Positions 1 through 20,533 of a DNA stretch of 22,860 bases are shown piece after piece. How positions within the stretch are numbered: the stretch's first letter is position 1; the number at the start of each line of letters is the position of its first letter. The stretch is taken from the IMG/VR virus record IMGVR_UViG_3300013372_001220, positions 1-22,860 of that record. One strand, written 5' to 3'. The stretch comes from a virus. The position numbers and the translations under genes were made by a program. The notes below the pieces were generated by a model, which was given only the letters and a program-made list of their open reading frames with translations, made no database searches and was not told the DNA's origin.

Positions 1-666
1 GCCAAGGCGGAAAGCGCAAACGCCCTTAAAGATCTTTCAGCGCGCCTAGAAGCACTCCGCAAGACTTTAAAAGGCTCTTTCCGCGTCAAGGGGGCTACCG
101 CAGCGCAGGCTAAAAAACTCAAAGCGTTGATTGCCGATGCCATTATCCTAAAGAAACTGCCCGAAGGCTTGCGAACCGGCGGAATGAGCCAATTCATTTC
201 CCGCGCGCAGGTTGAAGGAATCGTTGGTTTGACTAGCGCGCGCATGGAAACGGTCTACCGCACCAATGTTGCAAGCGCATACAACGATGCAACCGTCGAA
301 GCGATGGACAAACCCGCCGTACAAACTTGGGCCCCATTGCTCCGGCTAGTCGAAATCCATGATTCCCGCACCCGTGGCGCGCCAAATGGTGTTTACAAGC
401 AAAAAGGAAAGAGCGCAAATGAGGGTTTTCATTGGCAAATGGACGGGTACATTGAAACGGCGCAGCGATTTAGAGAACAAAACCTTGTTCCGCCAAACGG
501 TTTTAACTGCCGTGGCTCGCTTGAACCGTTCACACATGACGATGCCGGCGAATTAGGCTTGCTCGATAAGGACGAAAACATTGATAGGGAGAAACTAAAT
601 CGCTATAACAGCAAAAGGCAAGTTGTGATTGATCGCGGGCTTTATCCCGATGCAGGTTTTAAATGA
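1..666 (+). CDS. Mu F / SPP1 gp7-like head morphogenesis protein (5' truncated)
   Basis: The frame is open from base 1 to a TGA at 664-666, so this is the C-terminal 221 residues of a longer protein that starts left of the window. The C-terminal half has features I associate with the Mu F / SPP1 gp7 minor head family: an RTN-xx-xxYN stretch near residues 85-93, a HDSRTR motif near residue 120, and a C-terminal GFNCRG motif that corresponds to the family's usual HPNCRC-type signature. Family members act inside the procapsid near the portal and are needed for assembly or DNA delivery. The N-terminal visible part is Lys/Ala-rich and helical. The stop codon overlaps the next start (ATGA). The position ahead of a protease/scaffold gene fits the Mu-type head order. 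The family call comes from motif memory, not from a search. Confidence 0.75.
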   Translation, partial: AKAESANALKDLSARLEALRKTLKGSFRVKGATAAQAKKLKALIADAIILKKLPEGLRTGGMSQFISRAQVEGIVGLTSARMETVYRTNVASAYNDATVEAMDKPAVQTWAPLLRLVEIHDSRTRGAPNGVYKQKGKSANEGFHWQMDGYIETAQRFREQNLVPPNGFNCRGSLEPFTHDDAGELGLLDKDENIDREKLNRYNSKRQVVIDRGLYPDAGFK

Positions 667-824
667 CAGAAATGACCCTACAGCAAATCAACAAGGCAAT
701 CCGAGAAGCCAAAAAAGAGCGCGCTGCAATTGTTGCGGCACAAGCCGCATATCTAAAAGCCGTTAAAGATACGCGCAAGGCAGTAGACCTAGCAATGGAA
801 AAGGCACGAAAGGCGAACCAATGA
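663..824 (+). CDS. Small coiled-coil protein, 53 aa, unknown function
   Basis: A 53-codon frame starts at an ATG that overlaps the previous TGA by 4 bases, and its own TGA overlaps the next ATG (821) in the same way. It is therefore translationally coupled on both sides, which supports it as a real gene despite its size. The product is almost entirely Ala/Lys/Glu/Arg-rich and should form one amphipathic helix or coiled coil (for example KAIREAKKERAAIVAA near residues 11-26). It has no membrane segment and no cysteine. Because it sits between a head morphogenesis gene and the modular head proteins, a small virion-associated or chaperone role is possible, but I do not recognise a family. Confidence 0.65.
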   Translation: MTEMTLQQINKAIREAKKERAAIVAAQAAYLKAVKDTRKAVDLAMEKARKANQ

Positions 825-2164
825 AAATTGAAGATAAAGCGTATTTTGCAATGGAACCTAATTTGCAAGGAATGAAAAAGGTTAGGGATGAAATATATCG
901 TTTGGCGCAAATACATTTAGAGTTGTCAGAAAAATCAACTGATAGCCAAAAGAAATATAGAGGATCTGCAATTGCACAAGCGTTGTCGTCTTTTGTAAAC
1001 CGCGCGCCCTATGCCGCTGAAATCGGTATGGAATCTAAAGGATCTGCATATTGGTACAAGAAAGCGGTGCAACTAGCAAAAGAGGGCGCAGCGTATGGCG
1101 TTATTGCTGACAAACTAATTGCAGAAGCGTTATCCATTTACAACAGCCATTCCAAGCCCGTCGAGGACAAAGCGTATTTTGACCGGCGAATTTATCATTC
1201 AACAGGAACATTTCAAACTAAACTAGATAAAGAAACGCGCGTGCCTATTGATGGAACATCTAAGTTTGTAACAGTCGATCCGGCGCAATACATAACGCCA
1301 AGGCGCGTTCGCATTTCGGGCATCAAAGGCGAAATTGAAATTGCGGCTCAACTAAGCGGCGATGAAATAAAAGGGATATCCGCTAAATCTGTAAAGGCAA
1401 CGGCCGCCCGCCAAGGCTCTAAGGCTAAGTTTGCCAATTTTAAAGTTGGTCAAATTGTTAAATACAAGAATCCAAATTTGGATGAAGATCCAAATCAAAA
1501 GTACATTATTAAAGAAGTTAATGGCGACCGTGGATTTATGGAAACGCACGGCGGATATTTTAAAGATGCAACTTTTCCGCCACGGATGCTATATCAACAA
1601 AATGAAATTATGCTTGCTTCCCGCGCAGGAATCAAATCTAGGTTTGCAACAGATACTGATTACGCGCACAAAAACACCATTAAAATAAAAGGCAAGTCAG
1701 ATAAGATTTACGCCTTGATTTATGCAGAAGAAGGCTATGGGGATAATTTAACAGGAATTTGGAATGGTCATGTTCAAAACAACACCAACCCAAAAGTAAA
1801 TGACATAGTGACTATTGGACAATTTAAAACAAAAGAGGCTGCAAAGGCTGCCGCAATAAAAGCGTTAAAACAAGAAGAGCAAAACGCAAATTTTAGCAAA
1901 TCCAAGTTTGCCAACCGTGGCGCGTTTGCAGAAGCGTCATCGTCGCCGGTGCTTGGAAGCCTGTTAGAAAAAAAGGTAATGCCTGAAGGCGGTTGGCGCG
2001 CTGTAGAAACCGATGGCGGCGCGTTGGTAATTGCCTTTGAGGATGGCGACATTGCGGGCAACTTTGCTAGGAGAGCGGCAGAAAATGGTTATAGTGCAAC
2101 TGCGCCAATGGCTATGGCGGGACGATTTTGGAATGTAAAGGTACAAAATGAAAACAAAAACTAA
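821..2164 (+). CDS. Modular protein 1 (447 aa), putative polyprotein of internal head proteins
   Basis: The protein has a 10-residue tag ending EDKAYFA, then five modules of about 70-110 residues. K-A/S-x-F-A/D motifs occur at residues 6-10, 117-121, 201-205, 272-276 and 360-364. Module 1 (11-116) is helical and reappears in the next gene. Module 2 (122-205) is unassigned. Module 3 (206-270) begins NFKVGQIVKYKNP and looks like a small SH3-like domain that I recall as a stand-alone phage or plasmid protein. Module 4 (277-359) is an alpha/beta domain with a Lys/Ala-rich helical end. Module 5 (365-447) carries a GGWRAVETDGGALVIAFEDGD stretch. There are no cysteines, signal peptide or membrane segments. 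The start overlaps the previous stop (ATGA). The neighbours are an F-like head protein and the prohead protease, so packaging in the capsid with cleavage at the motifs is my inference. Adaptor or tether proteins with conserved linkers are the alternative. Confidence 0.7.
   Translation: MKIEDKAYFAMEPNLQGMKKVRDEIYRLAQIHLELSEKSTDSQKKYRGSAIAQALSSFVNRAPYAAEIGMESKGSAYWYKKAVQLAKEGAAYGVIADKLIAEALSIYNSHSKPVEDKAYFDRRIYHSTGTFQTKLDKETRVPIDGTSKFVTVDPAQYITPRRVRISGIKGEIEIAAQLSGDEIKGISAKSVKATAARQGSKAKFANFKVGQIVKYKNPNLDEDPNQKYIIKEVNGDRGFMETHGGYFKDATFPPRMLYQQNEIMLASRAGIKSRFATDTDYAHKNTIKIKGKSDKIYALIYAEEGYGDNLTGIWNGHVQNNTNPKVNDIVTIGQFKTKEAAKAAAIKALKQEEQNANFSKSKFANRGAFAEASSSPVLGSLLEKKVMPEGGWRAVETDGGALVIAFEDGDIAGNFARRAAENGYSATAPMAMAGRFWNVKVQNENKN
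851..1153 (+). repeat. Duplicated module, copy A (101 codons)
   Basis: This 303-base stretch aligns without gaps to 2772-3074. By hand alignment about 83 of 101 encoded residues are identical; the main difference is a six-residue patch (KYRGSA here, QNYEYR in copy B). Similarity stops at the flanks, where this copy is bordered by EDKAYF-type linkers. Confidence 0.9.
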
Positions 2165-3761
2165 TTTTGCAACAACATCGGATGTCCGCAATTTGATTAA
2201 CGCAGTTATGGAATCCTTTCCAAAGGGGCCGGTGCGTGACGGCATCCAAACAAAAATGTTTAATTATTGGGACAACTTAAACGCCGGAAACAACTTGCCC
2301 GAAGGATCTGACCGCAAACGGTTTCATGCCGAAGCCCTCGACAACTATAAAGCAGCAATTCGCATGGCAATAACTTTAGGAAGTAAAAGGGACAGTAGTT
2401 ACGAATTTAAAGTTACCGAATTGGAACGAAAGTTGTCAAAAATCAAAGTAGGCAAAAACGAAATGGCAAAGGTTGAAGATAAGTTTTATGGCAAGCGCGT
2501 TGTGAAGGGAATCTTTGCGAAGGCGAAGTTTGACAAATCAAATTATTACGCTCTTGAAGGAACGGTAGATGGAATGGCCGCAGGTTCAAAAACTGTAGAT
2601 AACATTGAAGAAGCAATGTATTACGGAAACGCAATGCTTGCACACATGAAAAAGCAAAGCCCAAAAGCCAAGGTAACAACGGTTCATATTTACAAAGTTG
2701 TAAATTATGAGCGTGAAAATAAGCCTGTAAAAGTTCTTAATTCCCGCACCGGCTTAAAGGCAAAGTTTGCAATGCAACCTAATTTGCAAGGTATGAAAAA
2801 GGTTAGGGACGAAATATATGCTCTAGCGCAAACGCATTTAAGGCTGTCAGAAAAATCAACTGATAGCCAAAAACAAAATTACGAATATCGCATTGCAACG
2901 GGTTTATCGTCTTTTGTAAGTCGCGCGCCCTATGGTGCTGAAATTGGAATGGAATTTAAAGGATCTGCATATTGGAACAAGAAAGCAATGCAACTTGCAA
3001 ATGAAGGCGCGGCTTATGGCGTTATTGCTGACAAACTAATTGCAGAAGCGTTATCTATTTACAACAGTCATTCCCGCACCGGATCTAAGGCAAAGTTTGC
3101 CAACGGCGGCACAAAGACCGCTGCATTCTTGGCTAAAATTGACAGTAAAAGCAAAGCAATGATCCTTGAAAACATTGCTAAGAATTATGGAATTAGCGCA
3201 CAAGCCGCGCTTGCTGAAATAACAGATAGCGAATCAGAAAACTTGCTTGACTACATGACAGAGCCGGCGCGTAGTGCGGCATCAGTTTTGATGCAGAAGT
3301 ACGGATCATTTTCCCGCAACGGCTTTAAGGCAAGGTTTGCAAAGGAATACATTTTGTGGGCTGTGCCAAAAGGCAAAACGGACACAATGTATTCACAACC
3401 TATAGCGGAACAACTCTACACGGATGCACAAATAAACGAAGTAAAACGCAAAGCAACCGCTGCCGGTTGGCATACTTTTAGAATTGCTGAAATGATGAGT
3501 TTTGAAGATATGACAAACGCTTTTAAGGGCAAGCCCGTTAAAAAACGAAGTTCCCGCACGGGCGTAAAGGCGAGGTTTGCATTCAATTTAAATAAAAAAG
3601 TAACCTATCTAAATTCAGACAATTATCCGCAAAGTTACAAAATCACCGATGCTTTGTTTGCAAAATTAAATTTGCGGGATGGCAACAGTAGAAAATATTT
3701 GGAAGCCGCATTAAAAACAGGCGAGGCGGTAAAAATTTCACGCGTAGAGGCTATTTCATAA
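2148..3761 (+). CDS. Modular protein 2 (537 aa), putative polyprotein of internal head proteins
   Basis: The protein opens with a short tag (MKTKTNFA) and then has six modules. They are separated by KAKFD (125-129) and by four near-identical linkers of the form SRTGxKAKFA at 199-208, 309-318, 389-398 and 469-478. Module 1 (9-124) is helical. Module 2 (130-198) is an alpha/beta domain with many Tyr and Lys residues. Module 3 (209-309) is the paralogue of module 1 of the preceding protein. Module 4 (319-388) is helical. Module 5 (399-468) begins KEYILWAVPKGKTD and resembles a small stand-alone protein family I have seen in phages and plasmids. Module 6 (479-537) is a short basic domain. The start overlaps the preceding gene by 17 bases with an AAAGG Shine-Dalgarno, and the stop overlaps the protease start (TAATG). 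The linkers look like processing or tag sites; a non-cleaved modular structural protein remains possible. Confidence 0.7.
   Translation: MKTKTNFATTSDVRNLINAVMESFPKGPVRDGIQTKMFNYWDNLNAGNNLPEGSDRKRFHAEALDNYKAAIRMAITLGSKRDSSYEFKVTELERKLSKIKVGKNEMAKVEDKFYGKRVVKGIFAKAKFDKSNYYALEGTVDGMAAGSKTVDNIEEAMYYGNAMLAHMKKQSPKAKVTTVHIYKVVNYERENKPVKVLNSRTGLKAKFAMQPNLQGMKKVRDEIYALAQTHLRLSEKSTDSQKQNYEYRIATGLSSFVSRAPYGAEIGMEFKGSAYWNKKAMQLANEGAAYGVIADKLIAEALSIYNSHSRTGSKAKFANGGTKTAAFLAKIDSKSKAMILENIAKNYGISAQAALAEITDSESENLLDYMTEPARSAASVLMQKYGSFSRNGFKARFAKEYILWAVPKGKTDTMYSQPIAEQLYTDAQINEVKRKATAAGWHTFRIAEMMSFEDMTNAFKGKPVKKRSSRTGVKARFAFNLNKKVTYLNSDNYPQSYKITDALFAKLNLRDGNSRKYLEAALKTGEAVKISRVEAIS
2742..2771 (+). repeat. 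Linker repeat 1 (SRTGLKAKFA)
   Basis: A 30-base in-frame direct repeat encoding SRTGLKAKFA, with near-identical bases to the copies at 3072, 3312 and 3552 (pattern TCCCGCACCGGC, then AAGGCAAAGTTTGC). It joins the second module to the duplicated module. Confidence 0.9.
2772..3074 (+). repeat. Duplicated module, copy B (101 codons)
   Basis: This is the second copy of the module at 851-1153, in the same orientation, 1921 bases downstream and inside the next gene. It is bordered on both sides by SRTGxKAKFA linkers instead of the EDKAYF linkers that flank copy A. Confidence 0.9.
3072..3101 (+). repeat. Linker repeat 2 (SRTGSKAKFA)
   Basis: In-frame 30-base repeat; it follows the duplicated module and precedes the fourth module. 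It matches linker 1 at the nucleotide level apart from the variable fifth codon and a few silent sites. Confidence 0.9.
3312..3341 (+). repeat. Linker repeat 3 (SRNGFKARFA)
   Basis: In-frame 30-base repeat with Asn for Thr and Arg for Lys. It immediately precedes the module beginning KEYILW. Confidence 0.88.
3552..3581 (+). repeat. Linker repeat 4 (SRTGVKARFA)
   Basis: In-frame 30-base repeat that precedes the last module of the 537-aa protein. Degenerate relatives in the preceding gene lie at 1406-1435 (ARQGSKAKFA), 1619-1648 (SRAGIKSRFA) and 1895-1912 (SKSKFA). Confidence 0.88.
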
Positions 3762-5011
3762 TGGCCGCATCCCACCAAACGGAAACTACGCCTGACGGCA
3801 AGGTTCGCATTAAGGACTTAGAATTGTTCATGGGCTACGATCCCTCGATTGATGCCGAGGATGACGATGCTATGCAGGAATACGATTCCAAGAAGGTAAA
3901 AGACATTGTTAGCCGCACCAACAAGTTTATTGCGCGCGGCAGCCGCCCCAAACTTGTAATTGAGCATGAAAAAGATGGCAAGCCTAGCAACCCAAAGGCA
4001 GTTGGCGACATTGAAAAAGTGTGGCTTGAAGAACGCAACGGCGTTTCCTATGTCATTGGCGATGTAATTATGCCCAAGGAATCATTTAAGGCATACTTGG
4101 CAACCAACGCTTTCCCGCGTCGATCCGCTGAAATTTGGAAAGACAATCATTTGAGCGAAGTGGCTTTGTTGGGACGGGACACCCCGCGCCGCCCATTGCC
4201 GGACACTTCATTTACAAAACTTGGCGATAAGATTATTTTTGAAAGAAAATTGTCCGCGTTGGACATGACACTTGACTTGAAATCAAAATTTGACGAAATT
4301 GGCGTAGGTGGTGGTTCAAACACCTTCGTCCCATCGTCAGGAATTACAAAGGAAACAAAAATGGCTAAGAAGAAGCGAATGGATGCTGAAGAAGAATTGA
4401 AGCAAAATGCCGCTATGGAATGCGCTGTTGACCCTGACGAGGATGAAGAAAACTTTGAGGGCGACGACCTCGAAACTATGGAAGCCGATGCTGAAGCAAT
4501 GGGCGCGGACGACATGGAAGATGAAATGGCCGAAGATGAAGATATGGAAGTTATGGCTGAAGATGACGACGAGGAAGTAAACGCTTACGGCGGAAAGAAG
4601 AAAATGAAGCAGCCAATGTTTAGCAAGGGCAGCCGATCCGAAAAGGCTTTGTTTGCACAAGTGCAGGCTTTGACCGAAGCAAATAAGGCAATGGAGCGTC
4701 AATTGCGCCTAGAGCGATTTGGCAAGGAAATTGACAACATGGTGCGTGACGGTTTCCGTTGCTCCAAGTTCCGCAACCAAATGGTTGAGGAGTTGGCAGA
4801 CAGCGAAGCCCCACAAGCAAAGGTTTCTTTTTGGAAAGCGACAATGGCGCGCGATCTGACAGGTATGCCAATGTTGGCTCAAATGACTGTGCAAAACGAT
4901 AGTCCAAATATGGGTGATCGTGAAGCAAGCGACCGCGCTGTTCGTGAAGCAGCCGGCGATATGACGAAATTTAAACAACTGTTCAGCAAGTACACAGGCA
5001 AACAAGCCTAA
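3761..5011 (+). CDS. Mu I-like prohead protease fused to scaffold (416 aa)
   Basis: The N-terminal part (about 1-175) looks like the Mu gpI-type serine protease. His69 lies in LVIEHEKDGKP, followed by the typical AVGDIEKVW and beta-rich region. Ser122 lies in FPRRSAEIW, followed by LSEVALLGRDTPRR. His69 and Ser122 are my catalytic candidates. Residues 174-200 are a linker with KSKFD and then GVGGGSNTFVP. Residues 201-416 are scaffold-like: a basic start, a long Asp/Glu/Met-rich stretch (about 204-275), a Lys patch, a KALFA motif (295-299) and a coiled-coil C-terminus. In Mu, protease I and scaffold Z have the same nested arrangement. The start codon overlaps the preceding stop (TAATG). The enzyme should act inside the procapsid, removing scaffold and maturing head proteins; its likely substrates are discussed in the findings. 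Confidence 0.82.
   Translation: MAASHQTETTPDGKVRIKDLELFMGYDPSIDAEDDDAMQEYDSKKVKDIVSRTNKFIARGSRPKLVIEHEKDGKPSNPKAVGDIEKVWLEERNGVSYVIGDVIMPKESFKAYLATNAFPRRSAEIWKDNHLSEVALLGRDTPRRPLPDTSFTKLGDKIIFERKLSALDMTLDLKSKFDEIGVGGGSNTFVPSSGITKETKMAKKKRMDAEEELKQNAAMECAVDPDEDEENFEGDDLETMEADAEAMGADDMEDEMAEDEDMEVMAEDDDEEVNAYGGKKKMKQPMFSKGSRSEKALFAQVQALTEANKAMERQLRLERFGKEIDNMVRDGFRCSKFRNQMVEELADSEAPQAKVSFWKATMARDLTGMPMLAQMTVQNDSPNMGDREASDRAVREAAGDMTKFKQLFSKYTGKQA
4361..5011 (+). CDS. Nested scaffold protein from internal start (216 aa)
   Basis: Codon 201 of the protease gene is an ATG preceded by AAAGGAAA at a normal Shine-Dalgarno distance (4348-4355). The same style of ribosome site precedes the decoration gene (5030) and the capsid gene (5485). 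Translation from here gives a separate scaffold without the protease domain: MAKKKRMDAEEEL, then a very acidic segment, a Lys-rich patch, and a helical C-terminus ending in a basic tail. Nested scaffolds are known for Mu (Z within I) and lambda (Nu3 within C). Scaffold would be needed in large excess over protease, which an internal strong start would provide. The start is inferred from sequence only. Confidence 0.65.
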   Translation: MAKKKRMDAEEELKQNAAMECAVDPDEDEENFEGDDLETMEADAEAMGADDMEDEMAEDEDMEVMAEDDDEEVNAYGGKKKMKQPMFSKGSRSEKALFAQVQALTEANKAMERQLRLERFGKEIDNMVRDGFRCSKFRNQMVEELADSEAPQAKVSFWKATMARDLTGMPMLAQMTVQNDSPNMGDREASDRAVREAAGDMTKFKQLFSKYTGKQA

Positions 5012-8431: not shown

Positions 8432-8676
8432 CCATATTTACGGCTGTCTATGGTGCGACTCCGTGGCAAATGCCGCCTGAAGCCGCCTTGGGTTTGATGA
8501 TGAATTTATCAGTAGCAAACGCTTGGAAAACCATCCCAATCGTTCAAGGCATTGGGTTGGTCACAGGCGGCAAAGACACTTTTGCAAATTTTATTCCCTC
8601 ACTTTATGGAAAAACCCCTAGTACAAAAGATCAAATTAGGGCATCACTTGATGAACTAAGGAACACAAAAAGATGA
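8171..8676 (+). CDS. Tail assembly chaperone, GT-like -1 frameshift product (168 aa)
   Basis: After a -1 slip at GGGAAAA (8410-8416, read G GGA AAA) the ribosome continues at 8416 in the frame that reads NWRTVAIFTAVYGATPWQMP and stays open to the TGA at 8674-8676. The product has 82 residues of the short form plus 86 residues of a T-like domain. No good ribosome site precedes the internal ATG at 8470, and the frame is open well upstream of it, which argues for frameshifting rather than a separate gene. In lambda and many siphophages the GT form recruits the tail tube to the tape measure. The TGA overlaps the next ATG (8673). Confidence 0.72.
8410..8453 (+). promoter_or_regulatory. -1 ribosomal frameshift site with candidate pseudoknot
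   Basis: Slippery heptamer GGGAAAA occupies 8410-8416 in the correct zero-frame phase. Nine bases later CCGTA (8426-8430) can pair with TACGG (8439-8443). CCATA (8432-8436) in that loop can pair with TATGG (8449-8453), which would make a compact H-type pseudoknot. Confidence 0.62.
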
Positions 8677-9944
8677 CTGTAAGCCTTTCAACTTTGTATT
8701 CAAGACTTGGAAAATTGATGGGCATTGCCAAGGCTCAAATTGACGCGCGCGCAGCAATCAAGTCTAGGGTTACAACTCTAGACGGCTCTTATGACGCGGC
8801 AAGCCGATATATGTTTACCCCTGTTTTGAATTACTTCTTGAACTTGGGAAAGTCGCAGGATCGCAGTATCACGGAATCAGTTTCGGGAGCGGTTAAAACT
8901 TTGACCGAAATGGTTTATACGGACAATCCAAATATTGCCAAAAGCGCAATTCCGGCGTTGCGTGAACTGAATCGCCAAATGATTGCAGCAACCGCAACTT
9001 TTCCGGCAAACACAATTACCCAAGGCGCGGCTTCTTTTGGCGCAGCAAATGTTGGAACCGGCAAAATTATCTTGCACGGCATCCCTTCCCAAATGTCGCC
9101 TACTGAAACATTGCGCTTTCAATGCGTTAGCGACACAACCACAGGAGCGACCGCAGGGCGCGAGCAATTTACGGTTACGGGTAGCGCGCGCGTATCTGAC
9201 ATTACTAGCGACGAATACCCCGCCGGCAGCGGCGCAAGTGGTTTGATTACAAGCAGCGACTACAACGATGGGCAAAACACAGTAAGCAACGGCGGGTTTG
9301 ATTCTTGGACAGGTGGCTCCCCCGATGGGTGGATAGTTAGTGGAGCAGGAACTGCCCTTACTCAATTAAGTAGCGGAATGTTACGCGGTAGTTCATGCTT
9401 ACAAGCCACAGGATTAACAAGTTATCAAGTAACTCAATCAGGGGTAAACCAACTTGTTGGGCCAAATAAAAGAATTATTTATGGATTTTGGGTGAAAAGA
9501 ATTTCAGGAACAAACACCCGCGATATTGAACTTGAAGTAAACGCAACGGCTACAGGTAGCGCAATTTCTTCCGTAGTTGCTACGGCGGCAGCGGTAACAA
9601 CAAGTTGGCAACTTTTTACAGGTTCGTATCAATTTCCGTCAAATGCCCCCGTTGAAGCCGTTGAACTAAATTTAATTATTCAAGTTGATGCTAGTTGTGT
9701 TTATGCAATTGATGGAGTGTTTTGTTTCTTGCCACAACAATTTGGAGTAAATGGACAATACATTCAAATTATTGGCGGAACTACAGATTGGCGCATTGGC
9801 GACTATGCCACAATTGCAATAACAAACGACTACTACGCAACCGTTTTAAATTACACGGAACGGTTTTTTGCGCCATTCCAAAATGGAATTGAATTGCCAA
9901 CTACTACAGGAACACCAACTATTTTAAATTCGGTAATTCCGTAA
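8673..9944 (+). CDS. Tail-associated protein with carbohydrate-binding-like domain (423 aa)
   Basis: The architecture has three parts. The first is a helical N-terminus (about 1-115). The second is a beta domain with GTGKIILHG and RFQCVSDTTTG. The third is a jelly-roll-like module from about residue 208 (SNGGFDSWTGGSPDGWIV, ending YAIDGVFCF near 350) that follows the pattern of CBM4/9-type carbohydrate-binding modules: an NGxFE-W-xxPxGW start and a Y-x-IDDV-like end. The C-terminus contains GTTDWRIGDYATIAI and closes with NGIELPTTTGTPT. The protein at 17700-19100 has the same layout and is a paralogue. It lies unusually between the tail chaperone and tape measure genes. It could be a minor tail protein, a tail decoration or a receptor-binding protein. 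The start overlaps the preceding stop (ATGA). Confidence 0.6.
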   Translation: MTVSLSTLYSRLGKLMGIAKAQIDARAAIKSRVTTLDGSYDAASRYMFTPVLNYFLNLGKSQDRSITESVSGAVKTLTEMVYTDNPNIAKSAIPALRELNRQMIAATATFPANTITQGAASFGAANVGTGKIILHGIPSQMSPTETLRFQCVSDTTTGATAGREQFTVTGSARVSDITSDEYPAGSGASGLITSSDYNDGQNTVSNGGFDSWTGGSPDGWIVSGAGTALTQLSSGMLRGSSCLQATGLTSYQVTQSGVNQLVGPNKRIIYGFWVKRISGTNTRDIELEVNATATGSAISSVVATAAAVTTSWQLFTGSYQFPSNAPVEAVELNLIIQVDASCVYAIDGVFCFLPQQFGVNGQYIQIIGGTTDWRIGDYATIAITNDYYATVLNYTERFFAPFQNGIELPTTTGTPTILNSVIP

Positions 9945-15760: not shown

Positions 15761-16074
15761 TGAGCCAAATTTATGTGATGAGAAAAGTTTTGTACATTGC
15801 TGAAACCGCGTTGGTTATTGCGGACGGCGCAAGCGTGTATTTCAAGAGCATTTACATTTCAAACAGTCACAATGCAGCCGTAAAATCAACACTTGCAATA
15901 ACAAGAGGGCAATCATTTTCTGCGGTTGGCGATTACATTGTTTATGAATACAGTTTGGCGGCAGGCGAATATTTAAAGTTAGAAGATATTGCTATTCCCG
16001 TTGGTCATCAGTTGCGCGCGTTTTGCAACCATGATGCAACAACTAGCGTAGTTGGCACAGGAATTATGGAATGA
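15760..16074 (+). CDS. Small beta-rich tail-tip protein (104 aa), unknown
   Basis: A 104-residue protein that is mostly beta strands: YVMRKVLYIAETALVIADGA, VYFKSIYISNSHNAAVKSTL, VGDYIVYEYSLAAGEYLKLE and a final HQLRAFCNHDATTSVVGTG. The pattern of an early strand, SNxHxxAV and a GExL-type motif resembles small head-fibre or tail-tip beta-sandwich proteins. I cannot name a family. It is translationally coupled to both neighbours by TAATG at the start and ATGA at the end, so it is part of the tail tip operon. Confidence 0.55.
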   Translation: MSQIYVMRKVLYIAETALVIADGASVYFKSIYISNSHNAAVKSTLAITRGQSFSAVGDYIVYEYSLAAGEYLKLEDIAIPVGHQLRAFCNHDATTSVVGTGIME

Positions 16075-17177
16075 GTCAGCGGATAGCGGGCTGTTGCTGC
16101 GGCAAATGCGTTAACGCTGCGCTAGGGGTTTGCTGTATTAAATTACCGGCAAGTACCGCAAACTGCCTTGGTGATTGTGAAGGTTTTGATCCTAACGATG
16201 GAACTTCAGTTGGAATAATTTCTAATTACACAACGGCGCAATGTACACAAGCCGGAATTGATTACGGTTTAAATGTTGTATTTACCGTATATCCAAATTG
16301 CGCGCCAATATCAATATGCGATTGCCTTGATTCTGTAACTGAATGCGTTTGTGCAAATCAAAATGGAATTTGGAATGGAAGCAATAACTGCGCCACGGCT
16401 TGCTTAGGTTCGTGCTGCGTTCGTGATTTAAATGGGCAAAGAATAAGTTGCCACGATCTAATGACAGAATGCGATTGTGATGCGCTAAAATCTCCAACTC
16501 AAAACACTTTATGGACTGTTGGCTTAAACTGTCTTAATAGTCCATGCCAAGTTCCATGCGGCCCTGATTTGTGTCTTGGCGGTAACAATGGTCGTGAAAA
16601 CATACTTGTTAGAACAGTTTTCACAAGGACAATTAACTTTACTTTTAATGGGCTTGGCGGTTGTTATCAAAAACTTGTTTCAGACGAAAAATATATAAGG
16701 TTGGACACTATGAATAGGGATGGATATGATTTAATGTTGCGTATATCTCGTTTTAGAAACGGCCCAATAATTAGCGTTGTAAACGAAGTAGAAGAACAAG
16801 GCACAACTGTTGAAAACGAAACATACGGCATTGTAATGACATCAAATTGCATCGATTACGGCTGTATGCCAAATTCATCGTATTCAAATAGTTCTTATGA
16901 AGGGCATGGAGAATTTGGGCCAAGCCACAATGCTTATAAAGGTACATTATATATTACATACGGGGATTTATATTATGTAATAAGAAACTCTTGTTTATTA
17001 CCTTATCAAATAAGTTTGTTGGATTGGTGGACGGACGCAACCGGATCGCCAACTTGCCCTGTTAGTGCTGAATGTCAAGCAAAATTAAATGCTTATAGGG
17101 CGTGGGTTCCGCCTTGTCCATACGGTTCCTCTACAAGAATAGAAACAGGAACTTCATCAAATGGTGGTTGTGCATAA
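16071..17177 (+). CDS. Cysteine-rich tail-tip protein, putative adhesin (368 aa)
   Basis: The protein has 33 cysteines, 25 of them in the first 170 residues. They occur in repeated units: GCCCGKC, GVCCIKLPASTANC, then TECVCANQNGIWNGSNNC, LGSCCVRDLNGQRISC and TECDCDALKSPTQ with a closing NC. The unit (GxCC, then a Cys, then T-x-x-x-C, an x-x-G-x-W stretch, and a last Cys) resembles extracellular Cys-rich repeats that I associate with secreted proteins of environmental bacteria. Such repeats would be disulfide-stabilised and suit the outside of a virion. Residues 175-310 are beta-rich, and the C-terminus ends in a Ser/Thr/Gly-rich tail. A receptor-binding role is inferred from position in the tail tip operon and composition. 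Starts and ends with overlapping codons (ATGA, TAATG). Confidence 0.5.
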   Translation: MSQRIAGCCCGKCVNAALGVCCIKLPASTANCLGDCEGFDPNDGTSVGIISNYTTAQCTQAGIDYGLNVVFTVYPNCAPISICDCLDSVTECVCANQNGIWNGSNNCATACLGSCCVRDLNGQRISCHDLMTECDCDALKSPTQNTLWTVGLNCLNSPCQVPCGPDLCLGGNNGRENILVRTVFTRTINFTFNGLGGCYQKLVSDEKYIRLDTMNRDGYDLMLRISRFRNGPIISVVNEVEEQGTTVENETYGIVMTSNCIDYGCMPNSSYSNSSYEGHGEFGPSHNAYKGTLYITYGDLYYVIRNSCLLPYQISLLDWWTDATGSPTCPVSAECQAKLNAYRAWVPPCPYGSSTRIETGTSSNGGCA

Positions 17178-17699: not shown

Positions 17700-19100
17700 A
17701 TGGCTTTAAATGTCGCAAATTTCACAAGTCGCCTAGGTAACCTTTTCGCATACGCCGAACAGGTAAGAGAATTAAACGCAAGTCTTTACCTAGATTATTT
17801 GACGACTTTAACTACCGATTTTGACGGCAGCGGCTACCAATCAACCATTGCCAATTTGCAGCCTCTTGGAAACATTCAAACAGGAATTGCTAACACAATG
17901 GGTATTGCGGTTTACCAAGGAATCCAAGCAAGCATTACGGATTTTATAATTCAATCCATTCAAAAAACAGAAGGTATTTACGATGGAACCTTGCCAACTG
18001 CGCTAAGAACATTGCGCGATGTTATGGTTGCCAATACAAAGTCGTTTCGTACCGTAAACACTTCTAGCATTACCTATACAGCAACAAGCGGCAATCAAGG
18101 CAACGGAACAATCCTTGTGACGGCATACCGTCCGGCTTCGTCCACGGTTTTCTTGCAGGAAATGTTCCATGAAACAATTAAGGGAGAATGTATCCAAGGC
18201 GGCAATGTTTCAAACTTTGGTTCCGCAACATTTACTTTGACAGGCTTAAATTCGCTTGCCAAAACAAATATGGAATATCCGCGTGGCGATACTGATATTA
18301 CCATTTACGGCGGTAGCGGAATCCGAACAAACATAACTTGCACAAGCGCAAGCGTTACTTCTAGCAATGGAAATTCCGGCGTGTCGCTTTTGTCTAACGG
18401 AGACTTTGAATCATGGAGTAGCAATACCCCTACCAATTGGACTATTGTCACAGGCACAGCGGGAACGCAAGTAACGCAAGGAACCACGCCCGCGCGCGGG
18501 GCTTCTGCGCTGCAATTTGTTGGCGATGGCACAACGCTTACAAGAATCCGCCAATTGATTGCGTCATCAAACGGCGCGCCAACTTCGGTTTCCGCAGAAA
18601 CAAATTACTGCATCATGTTTCAAGCCAAGGTTGCCGCAGCCGCTACCGGAACCGTTCTTGTTGCTTTGCGCGATGCCGCCGGAACAGTTGTTGGGACAGC
18701 GATTACATTAAATTTAGCAACACTTACTACTACCTATGCAATCAAATCCATAGCGTTTAGCGTGGCGCGTGGATCGCTTCCAACAACCCTGTACCTTGAT
18801 ATTTACAGCACAACGGCAATTCAATCCGCTAAGACATTGATGATTGACGAACTGATTTTTGCGCCAATGATTCCTTTGTATTCCGGCGGCCCTTCGGTGA
18901 TTGCATACAGCGGTTCGACCGATTGGAACAAGGACGACAAATTCAGCATTGCGGTAGTTTCTAATACTTCCGATGGCGTTGGCGGTTACGATGGAAAGTT
19001 TATGAAAAGTTTCAAGCGGTGGTGTCAAACTGAAGCCCTTGGAATCTATCTACCTGTTTCCGCAACTCCAACTGAAGCGGATACAAAGATCACTTTGTAA
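17700..19100 (+). CDS. Carbohydrate-binding-like tail protein, paralogue (466 aa)
   Basis: The layout is the same as that of the 423-aa protein at 8673-9944. It has a helical N-terminus (about 1-125), a GNGTILVTAYRP beta domain matching GTGKIILHG, and a jelly-roll-like module from about residue 235 (LSNGDFESWSSNTPTNWTIV, later KTLMIDELIFAP). The C-terminus carries SGSTDWNKDDKFSIAV, equivalent to GGTTDWRIGDYATIAI, and a YLPVSATPTEADTKI ending. The NGDFESW-xxPTNW start is the classic opening of CBM4/9-like modules that bind surface glycans. It closes the plus-strand structural block. Its AAAGGTAGGA ribosome site lies upstream. Divergence from the first copy is high, so this is an old duplication or two acquisitions. 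A fibre or receptor-binding role is likely but unproven. Confidence 0.6.
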   Translation: MALNVANFTSRLGNLFAYAEQVRELNASLYLDYLTTLTTDFDGSGYQSTIANLQPLGNIQTGIANTMGIAVYQGIQASITDFIIQSIQKTEGIYDGTLPTALRTLRDVMVANTKSFRTVNTSSITYTATSGNQGNGTILVTAYRPASSTVFLQEMFHETIKGECIQGGNVSNFGSATFTLTGLNSLAKTNMEYPRGDTDITIYGGSGIRTNITCTSASVTSSNGNSGVSLLSNGDFESWSSNTPTNWTIVTGTAGTQVTQGTTPARGASALQFVGDGTTLTRIRQLIASSNGAPTSVSAETNYCIMFQAKVAAAATGTVLVALRDAAGTVVGTAITLNLATLTTTYAIKSIAFSVARGSLPTTLYLDIYSTTAIQSAKTLMIDELIFAPMIPLYSGGPSVIAYSGSTDWNKDDKFSIAVVSNTSDGVGGYDGKFMKSFKRWCQTEALGIYLPVSATPTEADTKITL

Positions 19101-19749: not shown

Positions 19750-20138
19750 TTAAAGTTCCTCTTAAAATCCGCCCATGTTGCATCAAATTTTGTCCACGGT
19801 GCGCCTGCGCGCGCTTCGAGAGCCGCCCGAATCAATCGGTTTTTCATTTCCGATTTGCTCGCAGGCAGTTCAGGGAACAAGGTTTCCGGCTGCGATGCTA
19901 CCCAAACTATAGCGTTGCGCCCCGTGCGCGTTGGCGCGCGCTTGCCGGAATCACGGATGGCTTCCAATTTCTTTAAAGCGGTGAATGCCGGTGAGCAACT
20001 TTGATGCGTCAATTGCAATATGTGCATTGCTTGATCGCAAGTACAGCCGCCAACGCGGTCTATTAGGTCACGCACCCGCGCTTGAATGCGTGAAGTATCC
20101 ACGGAATCAAACGCTTCCTTTGATGTTGTTTGGATCAT
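19746..20138 (-). CDS. Winged-helix-like DNA-binding protein (130 aa)
   Basis: I use the ATG at 20138 because it overlaps the endolysin stop (ATGA), as at every other junction in this operon; a longer reading starts at 20168. The N-terminus reads SKEAFDSVDTSRIQARVRDL, then GGCTCDQAMHILQLTHQSCS, then TALKKLEAIRDSGKRAPTRT and GRNAIVWVA. That is helix, helix-turn-helix and beta-wing in the order of a winged-helix domain. It resembles a small phage HTH family with a conserved HQ-x-x-SA-x-x-x-xL and SGR-A-VW pattern. The C-terminal 50 residues are helical and basic. It may regulate phage genes or control lysis timing. The assignment is from pattern memory. Confidence 0.55.
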   Translation of the reverse strand: MIQTTSKEAFDSVDTSRIQARVRDLIDRVGGCTCDQAMHILQLTHQSCSPAFTALKKLEAIRDSGKRAPTRTGRNAIVWVASQPETLFPELPASKSEMKNRLIRAALEARAGAPWTKFDATWADFKRNFK

Positions 20139-20533
20139 TGGGCAAGCACCTTTTGAATTTTTAACCAATACTTTAGCGTTGCCGGCTTTAAGTAACCACG
20201 CGGCCCGCCGTTATGAATCCTTGCAAGCATCTCCAAAGTAACAGTTTTGCCCTTGGGTGCATAGCGGGCTAGGTATGCCCGCACTACATATTCCGCATAC
20301 TTGGGATCTTTGCAGTCTTGATAGCACCCGCTTATTTTTGAATCTTGCCAATAGCATTCCCAAATCTGAAACGCTCCAAGGGCTTTACCTTGATCGCCTA
20401 CTGCGTTGGGGTTGCCACCGGATTCCACTTGTTTTATGGCAGCAAGCAAGCGCACCATGTCAGATTCCGGCACTTGTGCAAACGCGCTTGTTGCCGCCGT
20501 AAAGGATAAAACCAAAGTTATTAAGTGTTTCAT
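20135..20533 (-). CDS. Secreted lysozyme / transglycosylase-like endolysin (132 aa)
   Basis: Residues 1-19 form a Sec-type signal peptide (MKH, then a hydrophobic stretch LITLVLSFTAATS, and AFA before the likely cleavage site). The mature part has the small lysozyme / SLT pattern. It has a QVESGG motif with the likely catalytic Glu37, GKALGAFQIW at 49-58 (the G-x-x-Q box), CYWQDSK with nearby Cys residues 60, 70 and 74 that could form disulfides, and RIHNGGPRGY at 105-114. Family members cleave peptidoglycan glycan strands. A secreted endolysin can reach the cell wall through Sec without a classical holin; no obvious holin gene is visible nearby. Start and stop overlap both neighbours by 4 bases, so it is one unit of a coupled operon. 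Confidence 0.78.
   Translation of the reverse strand: MKHLITLVLSFTAATSAFAQVPESDMVRLLAAIKQVESGGNPNAVGDQGKALGAFQIWECYWQDSKISGCYQDCKDPKYAEYVVRAYLARYAPKGKTVTLEMLARIHNGGPRGYLKPATLKYWLKIQKVLAQ

Follow-up and report, generated by a model that had tools for sequence, protein, structure and literature searches.

Two adjacent ORFs between the MuF-like and prohead protease genes of a viral sequence (IMG/VR record IMGVR_UViG_3300013372_001220; the 22,860-nucleotide stretch analysed is referred to here as the window) probably encode polyproteins of phage-head cargo, which would be loaded by a tag, cut by the neighbouring prohead protease and injected as freed proteins. Each polyprotein would combine a short tag for targeting (E-D-K/R-x-Y-F/G) with several small independent proteins, the modules, joined in series by linkers that end in [KP]-x-x-[FM]. 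By means of the tag the entire chain would enter the prohead core, and the neighbouring protease would then cut after the Phe or Met of each linker; the same cut would free the protease from its scaffold, remove the tags and, in relatives, also release parts of the portal and MuF proteins. Once freed, the proteins (about 55-120 aa) would remain in the head and enter the host with the DNA, where they would perhaps help to control the cell or deal with its defences, and phages would exchange modules through recombination at the shared linker.

The genes follow the order portal, MuF, the two ORFs, protease/scaffold and major capsid protein (MCP). The main features of the window are as follows, with (+) denoting the plus strand:

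1..666 (+): MuF-like minor head protein (Pfam Phage_Mu_F, E=1.2e-6), its 5' end lost at the window start
821..2164 (+): ORF of 447 aa, predicted polyprotein 1, with a 9-aa tag, five modules and five motif copies
2148..3761 (+): ORF of 537 aa, predicted polyprotein 2, with a 7-aa leader, six modules and six motif copies
3761..5011 (+): ORF of 416 aa, protease/scaffold protein, with two motif copies
3761..4291 (+): putative prohead protease domain, with candidate His69 (3965-3967) and Ser122 (4124-4126), from conservation, structural match and gene order
4292..5008 (+): acidic scaffold region and helical C-terminal part, from the sequence and predicted helices
5485..6513 (+): probable major capsid protein, from a weak PHROG major-head match and an N-terminal match to the protease protein across clades

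A homologous two-gene slot, with both genes variable, precedes the protease gene in about 36 related phage loci. One MAG contig in the genome collection belongs to the same phage group, and neither the protease nor polyprotein 1 had a match among isolated phages. Phage Mu has the same gene order (portal gp29, MuF gp30, protease/scaffold I/Z, major capsid T) and likewise combines protease and scaffold in one gene; unlike the window, it lacks modular ORFs in the interval from MuF to the protease.

The motif K-[AST]-x-F-[AD] occurs 13 times over three adjacent head genes (5, 6 and 2 copies in the 447-, 537- and 416-aa proteins, respectively), against about 0.25 expected; shuffled versions of these proteins contained on average 0.08, 0.10 and 0.07 matches, and none of 5000 shuffles gave more than 2. 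All 13 copies were found at the residues listed in a first-pass annotation of the window, which had proposed them as prohead protease sites at module boundaries. As that annotation had also claimed, the motif is absent from every other window protein, and the looser form K-x-x-F-[ADGS] is rare there (KRVFA, KDTFA, KQLFS, KITFG and KEAFD); one extra looser copy, KGIFA, lies at residue 120 of polyprotein 2. A search for matches in unrelated proteins, an abundance of which would have counted against the proposal, gave nothing to contradict it. A chance origin of the motif is ruled out by the shuffles and by its absence from the other genes.

That the motif marks module boundaries was borne out by a ~100-aa module present in both ORFs and flanked by the motif each time. 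The two copies of this module, M6 (848-1150 and 2769-3071), are 82% identical over ~100 aa, with a dN/dS of 0.25. The predicted parts of the three proteins are listed below, with related loci given by their L numbers and a slash marking the predicted cut; except where another basis is given, sites are predicted from the motif:

821..847 (+): candidate N-terminal capsid-targeting tag MKIEDKAYF, from tag conservation; predicted to be lost at the first cut
836..850 (+): predicted cleavage site KAYF/A
848..1180 (+): module M6, first copy, with a second tag-like sequence, PVEDKAYF, at its end; also in L010, L011 and L041
1169..1183 (+): predicted cleavage site KAYF/D
1181..1432 (+): module M7, linker ARQGSKAKF, from a relative in L024 and the linker DNA
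1421..1435 (+): predicted cleavage site KAKF/A
1433..1645 (+): module M39, linker SRAGIKSRF, without relative in the sampled loci
1634..1648 (+): predicted cleavage site KSRF/A
1646..1909 (+): module M40, without relative in the sampled loci
1898..1912 (+): predicted cleavage site KSKF/A
1910..2161 (+): module M0, the near-universal final module of polyprotein 1, its cluster present in 36 loci
2157..2171 (+): predicted cleavage site KTNF/A
2169..2531 (+): module M9, with tag segment VEDKFYGKRVVKGIFAKAKF at its end; also in L006 and L008
2472..2492 (+): candidate internal targeting tag VEDKFYG, from a tag in essentially every ORF2
2520..2534 (+): predicted cleavage site KAKF/D
2532..2768 (+): module M10, linker SRTGLKAKF, with relatives in L014, L021 and L031
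2757..2771 (+): predicted cleavage site KAKF/A
2769..3098 (+): module M6, second copy, linker SRTGSKAKF, from homology to the first copy
3087..3101 (+): predicted cleavage site KAKF/A
3099..3338 (+): module M18, linker SRNGFKARF, with free-standing relatives
3327..3341 (+): predicted cleavage site KARF/A
3339..3578 (+): module M11, linker SRTGVKARF, with relatives in L008 and L044 (ORF2) and L017 (ORF1)
3567..3581 (+): predicted cleavage site KARF/A
3579..3758 (+): module M41, last of polyprotein 2, without relative in the sampled loci
4280..4294 (+): predicted cleavage site KSKF/D at the protease/scaffold junction, from F177 conservation
4643..4657 (+): predicted cleavage site KALF/A within the scaffold, from conserved residues

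The looser KGIF/A at 2505-2519 may be another cleavage site.

Across the related loci, 217 module instances fall into 80 clusters (families), mostly of 55-125 aa, and modules recur in differing orders, positions and phages and in either ORF; relatives of M10, for example, come first in ORF2 of L014 and last in ORF2 of L021 and L031. Among 72 related polyproteins, 63% of 2652 internal homology-block ends are no more than 10 aa away from a site, compared to 23% of random positions, and the right-hand block ends peak exactly at the F of the motif. Module pairs that could be compared are under purifying selection, with dN/dS values of 0.07-0.59 (M11, 0.07 vs L008; M9, 0.24 and 0.59 for the copies in L006 and L008); a value below 1 wherever dS was measurable rules out pseudogenes or decay. 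Pfam searches found no domain in either window polyprotein and nothing of note among 73 relatives, and comparison of the modules to Pfam, PHROGs and NCBIfam gave nothing convincing and no significant family annotation; weak matches to AP2, acylphosphatase and thiolase fell under the cut-offs and were discarded. A literature search, with subscription papers and preprints outside its scope, found no published description of such cargo arrays. Should the cargo reading be correct, candidate injected proteins could be recognised from sequence by the signal alone, and about 80 essentially unannotated families (55-125 aa) would become predicted virion cargo, a library for anti-defence or host-takeover screens.

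The motif recurs in the head genes of related phages; its window form is one clade's version of a broader signal, [KP]-x-x-[FMY]-[ADGSKE], which in relatives reads S-R-P-G-x-[KP]-x-x-[FM]. In those relatives it also marks the portal and MuF proteins, in addition to the protease/scaffold junction and the interior of the scaffold. At the junction F177 is nearly invariant and is followed by A, D, G or S (the F is missing in L083 and L071, which read KVRNAE and KVQNAE), and within the scaffold K295, A296, L297, F298 and A299 are invariant in 14 relatives. The annotation had placed the cut after F-A/D; a cut between F and A/D is most likely, since any of several residues (A, D, K, G, S, E) can follow F, since the sequence following F177 matches the MCP N-terminus, (M)AEVGVGGGLNTFVP, after its Met in all clades, and since free versions of M18 start Met-Ala where the polyprotein reads Phe-Ala. 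These free-standing proteins of 70-73 aa are found on Pseudomonas-group plasmids, with one in Variovorax phage V45v66; a reading of M18 and M11 side by side on a Stutzerimonas plasmid was rejected, as translation gave M18 alone. In SPN3US and phiKZ, the prohead protease cuts portal, capsid and ejection proteins at A-x-E, repeatedly within long propeptides (PMC10052503). The short-motif cutting of head proteins predicted here is similar, but the SPN3US/phiKZ fragments are discarded propeptides, whereas those of the window look like products and their content is shuffled. A protease specificity for Phe or Met before the cut would also depart from the Glu rule of T4 and the phiKZ relatives.

The putative protease gene adjoins the major capsid gene and is fused to a scaffold with an acidic/helical tail. 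Its His69 and Ser122 are invariant in 15 diverse sequences, down to 49% identity, and are candidate catalytic residues. The models of the protease are of low confidence (mean pLDDT 54-57). Their top structural match was T4 gp21 (5jbl; Z 5.8 and 5.5 over about 102 aa), with the next matches at Z 4.3 and 3.8; gp21 is the sole match above background, and the resemblance in predicted fold is weak. Plain Foldseek with these models gave no significant match (E 0.44), and a sequence search of solved structures revealed no protease relative. The assignment to a Mu I-like family was not supported: neither the window protein nor its relatives gave any Pfam match, PF10123 included, and hhalign against seven Mu I relatives yielded a probability of 2.3%. 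The core of the first-pass interpretation, that prohead protease sites split two polyproteins, the protease from the scaffold and the scaffold internally, is nonetheless well supported by sequence comparison; its cut register and its protease family are not.

Full-length MuF proteins of relatives have a motif-like site (KPETFA, EKPDTFA, MPDRFD) ahead of the conserved FWEA region; the KPETFA site of close relatives falls outside the window because the window begins inside the MuF gene. No insert was found in the MuF of these close relatives (that of the window is cut off at its 5' end). In a distant marine clade, MuF is either empty, with a single DKATYAK site in L099, or carries inserts of 270-278 aa between two motif copies (L100, L106 and L108), the proteins being elsewhere about 81-82% identical. 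Paired sites around an insert imply that it would be released. The L108 insert is an ART-PolyVal domain (E=1e-17), and a toxin domain on MuF was seen in this marine clade only. With the modules lacking any significant family annotation, this insert from a distant clade is the one support for a cargo function. The distant relatives also show a Portal_Mu match. MuF polymorphic toxins carry cargo domains on the MuF head protein and are predicted to enter the host with the DNA (PMC5576092, PMC3482391). The marine relatives likewise place cargo inside MuF; the accessible text of those reports describes a fused toxin and no release by a prohead protease, whereas in the marine relatives a site pair brackets the cargo, and most of the predicted cargo is in separate polyprotein genes.

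One alternative is that the ORFs are never cut and encode long multi-domain internal or scaffold-associated proteins, in which the motif serves as a flexible linker or as the place where scaffold or capsid binds. Multi-domain polyvalent proteins, found on mobile elements and predicted to be packaged and injected, offer a precedent, as some are processed (P1 DdrB) and some stay uncut, for example the N4 virion RNA polymerase (PMC5512222). We consider this unlikely. The signal also stands between the protease and its own scaffold and recurs inside that scaffold; where it brackets MuF inserts, uncut cargo would mean an interrupted structural protein; the sequence after the junction site is that of the mature MCP N-terminus; and a plain linker would not require, in every clade, an aromatic residue or Met with a small residue after it. 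The cut-polyprotein reading shares with polyvalent proteins the ART-PolyVal domain of a distant relative. Processing of polyvalent proteins is predicted to involve zincin-like metallopeptidases within the chain, in contrast to the separate prohead protease and repeated signal of the window, and the several known effector domains per chain that define them were not found in the window polyproteins, whose modules match no Pfam domain.

All 34 complete proteins that end in M0 carry a candidate capsid-targeting tag, E-D-[KR]-[FA]-Y, at the N-terminus; 106,196 aa of other ORFs gave 0 matches. The tag occurs in essentially every intact polyprotein, adjoining a predicted site; the lone apparent exception among ORF2 proteins is L023, which reads VEDGFYFGK. 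From this locus, MKIEDKAYFA and VEDRFYFGKGRKERF are candidate tag peptides. In T4, the internal proteins IPI, IPII and IPIII (8-20 kDa) reach the prohead core via a targeting sequence of ~10 residues, which is removed by the prohead protease; they are injected, and IPI is active in the host arms race (PMC9026906). The leaders of the window, of 7-9 residues ending in F, are similar in size and place, but most ORF2 proteins carry the tag internally or C-terminally, unlike known N-terminal targeting sequences. In T4 each such protein has its own gene and gp21 cleaves after Glu, whereas the window has one tag for up to six tandem proteins, each predicted to be cut free at a signal ending in Phe or Met. 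If true, this would be a polyprotein strategy of tailed phages, with one signal importing many capsid passengers that are cut apart in equal numbers, and would supply a compact, transferable tag and cut site with which proteins could be loaded into phage heads.

At the DNA level, 436 kb of sequence contain 73 copies of the 12-mer TCC CGC CCC GGC, all of them on the coding strand and in frame within polyprotein genes, and 70/87 linkers (distinct contexts) contain it exactly, compared to about 2 expected from background codon use. A second alternative, which we rate as slightly less probable still than that of uncut proteins, is that the linker is kept as DNA, a recombination hook for cassettes, with the protein motif as a by-product. 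However, the window group and the marine clade encode the K/P-x-x-F part with other codons, and this part occurs at protease, scaffold, portal and MuF sites that lack the DNA repeat. Tag codons are nearly as uniform as the linker 12-mer, and shared descent therefore accounts for part of the uniformity. The two roles of the linker, as DNA hook and as cleavage site, may go together. A fuller, more tentative version of the cargo reading is a cassette system in which TCCCGCCCCGGC / S-R-P-G-x-[KP]-x-x-F would be both recombination hook and cleavage signal, one E-D-K/R-x-Y-F tag would load the set, and the at least 80 families would form an open pool of injected host-takeover or counter-defence proteins. 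If so, the locus would be a clear case of modular exchange at a repeated linker.

Cutting by a host protease or by one from a later infection stage, which would fit a Phe specificity differing from that of T4 gp21 and SPN3US gp245 (both after Glu), is very improbable, as the site is present in the neighbouring protease's own junction and scaffold and the sites are restricted to head genes of the same operon.

The genes of the 22,860-base viral metagenome record stand in the following order:

MuF-like minor head gene (Pfam Phage_Mu_F match), within which the window starts
447-aa ORF (polyprotein 1)
537-aa ORF (polyprotein 2)
416-aa protein (protease and scaffold)
decoration-type protein
major capsid protein
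tail genes

The motif K-[AST]-x-F-[AD] was found 13 times in the window, exactly at the positions listed in the first-pass annotation, and is confined to the 447-, 537- and 416-aa proteins; shuffles of these three gave an expected count of ~0.25, and a motif search of all other window proteins yielded no copy. Both ORFs contain a module of ~100 aa, the copies of which are 82% identical and are flanked by the motif in both cases.

Via the protease protein, 45 related loci were found on viral contigs, mostly at 54-97% identity, and a "marine" clade (33-45% identity) was added through a profile search; "marine" and "freshwater" are used as labels for two groups of relatives and not as established habitats. 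Searches of isolated phages gave no match to the protease or to polyprotein 1. Freshwater-type relatives preserve the slot of two genes between MuF and protease, with gene lengths of about 100 to 540 aa, and their boundary signal reads S-R-P-G-[QAE]-[KP]-[EDA]-[RTKM]-[FM], with A, D, K, G, S or E as the next residue; that of the window group is S-R-T-G-x-K-A-K-F-A. The first-pass pattern is thus the form that this wider signal takes in one clade.

Modules are shuffled at this signal. In 72 polyproteins, 63% of 2652 internal homology-block ends (from blocks ending inside both proteins compared) lay within 10 residues of a signal, compared to 23% for random positions; these figures are descriptive and carry no p-value, because ends drawn from related proteins are not independent of one another. 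Right ends peaked exactly on the Phe, whereas those on the left peaked where the linker starts. Splitting the polyproteins at the signal yielded 217 module instances, grouped into 80 clusters; many clusters (e.g., the M3, M7, M11 and M13 families) vary in order, neighbours and ORF. M10 and M18 occupy differing positions within ORF2, and M0 is the last module of polyprotein 1 in 36 loci. Purifying selection acts on the modules, dN/dS being 0.07-0.59 wherever dS was measurable.

M18 was also found outside polyproteins: Pseudomonas-group plasmids encode it as a separate protein of 70-73 aa, and Variovorax phage V45v66 has it as an ORF of its own. The small conserved M18-family protein of Pseudomonas and Stutzerimonas plasmids (L160:2549-2770, L161 and L162:2579-2791) carries the sequence EHLLDYMVEPQRSATSxLMQR; its genes often sit amid unannotated small genes, and the family is common to a phage and the present polyproteins.

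A second element, the tag E-D-[KR]-[FA]-Y, stays while the cargo changes completely. It stands at the start of 34/34 complete polyprotein-1 chains, and a regular expression matched it in 40 of the 41 other polyproteins (the exception reads VEDGFYFGK), with exactly one copy in 38 of the 41; 106,196 aa of other ORFs gave 0 matches. In most ORF2 proteins the tag lies between two predicted sites (ATFK-VEDRFYFGK-GRKERF) and would thus be excised. By analogy to the targeting peptides of T4 internal proteins, which are removed (PMC9026906), and to the N-terminal signal of P1 DarB, it may be read as a candidate capsid-loading signal, although its internal position is unlike both precedents.

The linker is encoded by nearly invariable codons, TCC CGC CCC GGC, in freshwater loci. 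Across 436 kb this 12-mer has 73 copies, all of them on the coding strand, in frame and in polyprotein genes; the single copy beyond the listed genes falls in the second polyprotein of locus L035. It is exactly present in 70 of 87 linkers from different protein contexts, whereas background codon use would give about 2. The codons of orthologous tags are almost equally uniform, indicating that recent descent contributes to linker uniformity. The simplest reading of these sequences is that modules would be exchanged along with their linker, possibly through recombination over short homology.

The protease protein had no match in Pfam, PHROG or NCBIfam. Its candidate catalytic residues, His69 and Ser122, are invariant in 15 diverse sequences. 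The AlphaFold models were poor (pLDDT 54 and 57); for both of these low-confidence models the best structural match was T4 gp21 (5jbl; Z 5.8 and 5.5), with unrelated rows below it at Z 4.3 and 3.8, and plain Foldseek with the protease model returned nothing significant. Although the gene order is that of Mu, comparing profiles with Mu I relatives gave no significant match. Its position, its conserved residues and a weak similarity of fold make this protein a probable prohead protease, but not an established member of the Mu I family.

The cut had previously been placed after F-A/D. The sequence after F177, at the protease/scaffold junction, is [ADGS]-E-[IV]-G-V-G-G-G-x-N-T-F-[VI]-P, and the N-terminus of the major capsid protein is (M)-A-E-[VY]-G-[VI]-G-G-G-x-N-T-F-[VI]-P; the marine clade shows a joint shift of both to A-P-G-G or S-P-G-G forms. 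Given a cut after F, the scaffold would bear the N-terminus that the capsid protein has once its Met is removed. M18, where it occurs as a free protein, begins M-A-N in place of the window's F-A-N, and K and E are among the residues found after F, which makes this position unlikely as a recognised P1. Together, these observations point to a cut at F|A/D, one residue ahead of the earlier position. The first-pass observation is confirmed and its interpretation supported at the core, with corrections to where the cut falls, how wide the motif is and which family label the protease bears.

The signal was also observed in other head proteins. In the protease protein, F177 is nearly invariant, the next residue being A, D, G or S, and the scaffold's K-A-L-F-A does not vary among 14 relatives. 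The relatives' MuF carries, at one place, K-P-E-T-F-A, E-K-P-D-T-F-A or M-P-D-R-F-D, and K-[DA]-[RK]-F-A precedes the C-terminal part of the portal in many of them. Sites occur both filled and empty: the marine-clade MuF of locus L099 has one D-K-A-T-Y-A-K only, and in those of L100, L106 and L108 two copies of this site exactly bracket an insert of 270-278 aa, the proteins being otherwise collinear and about 81-82% identical. In L108 the insert matches ART-PolyVal (E=1e-17), an ADP-ribosyltransferase of the polyvalent-protein type. Among the window's own close relatives, a portal C-terminal extension after S-K-K-K-F-S is present in L008 (portal of 624 aa) and absent in L006 (portal of 510 aa).

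Marine-clade MuF inserts between two KATYAK-like sites (L108:4869-6704, also L100, L106, L107 and L109) each open with a C-G-A-x...G-F-Q-P-G-N-T-C segment. The form C-G-[IVA]-G-x-G-G-F-Q-P-G-N-[KTD]-C, which may be a cargo leader or a metal-binding segment, recurs directly after K-x-x-F sites in three places, namely the portal, MuF and another cargo ORF, the third of its kind, and was located in:

portal C-termini of L014, L016, L017, L024, L034 and L041
ORFs before MuF in L099, L100, L101, L106 and L108

Judged from sequence, the polyproteins appear to work like the T4 internal-protein system. The tag would mediate their import into the prohead, where the protease would become active, release itself from the scaffold and cut at each Phe/Met of the signal; the freed proteins of 55-125 aa would be kept in the head, injected, and act on the host. 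This last step is suggested by precedent (T4 IPI and Alt; P1 Dar proteins), by the ART insert and by the module shared with plasmids. Unlike the T4 internal proteins, those described here are in a tandem, exchangeable, polyprotein form, of which no description was found in the accessible literature searched.

Elsewhere in the window, the tail region encodes a Cys-rich 368-aa protein (16071-17177) with repeated CC...DC...C-x-C blocks, unusual for a phage virion protein. Two long proteins (8673-9944 and 17700-19100), alike by eye in their start/end segments and middle, look like paralogous tail-associated proteins. On the minus strand, 20135-20533 encodes a possible lysis enzyme of 132 aa, whose start resembles a signal peptide and which contains a stretch (IKQVESGGNPNAVGDQGKALGAFQI) similar to lysozyme/transglycosylase.
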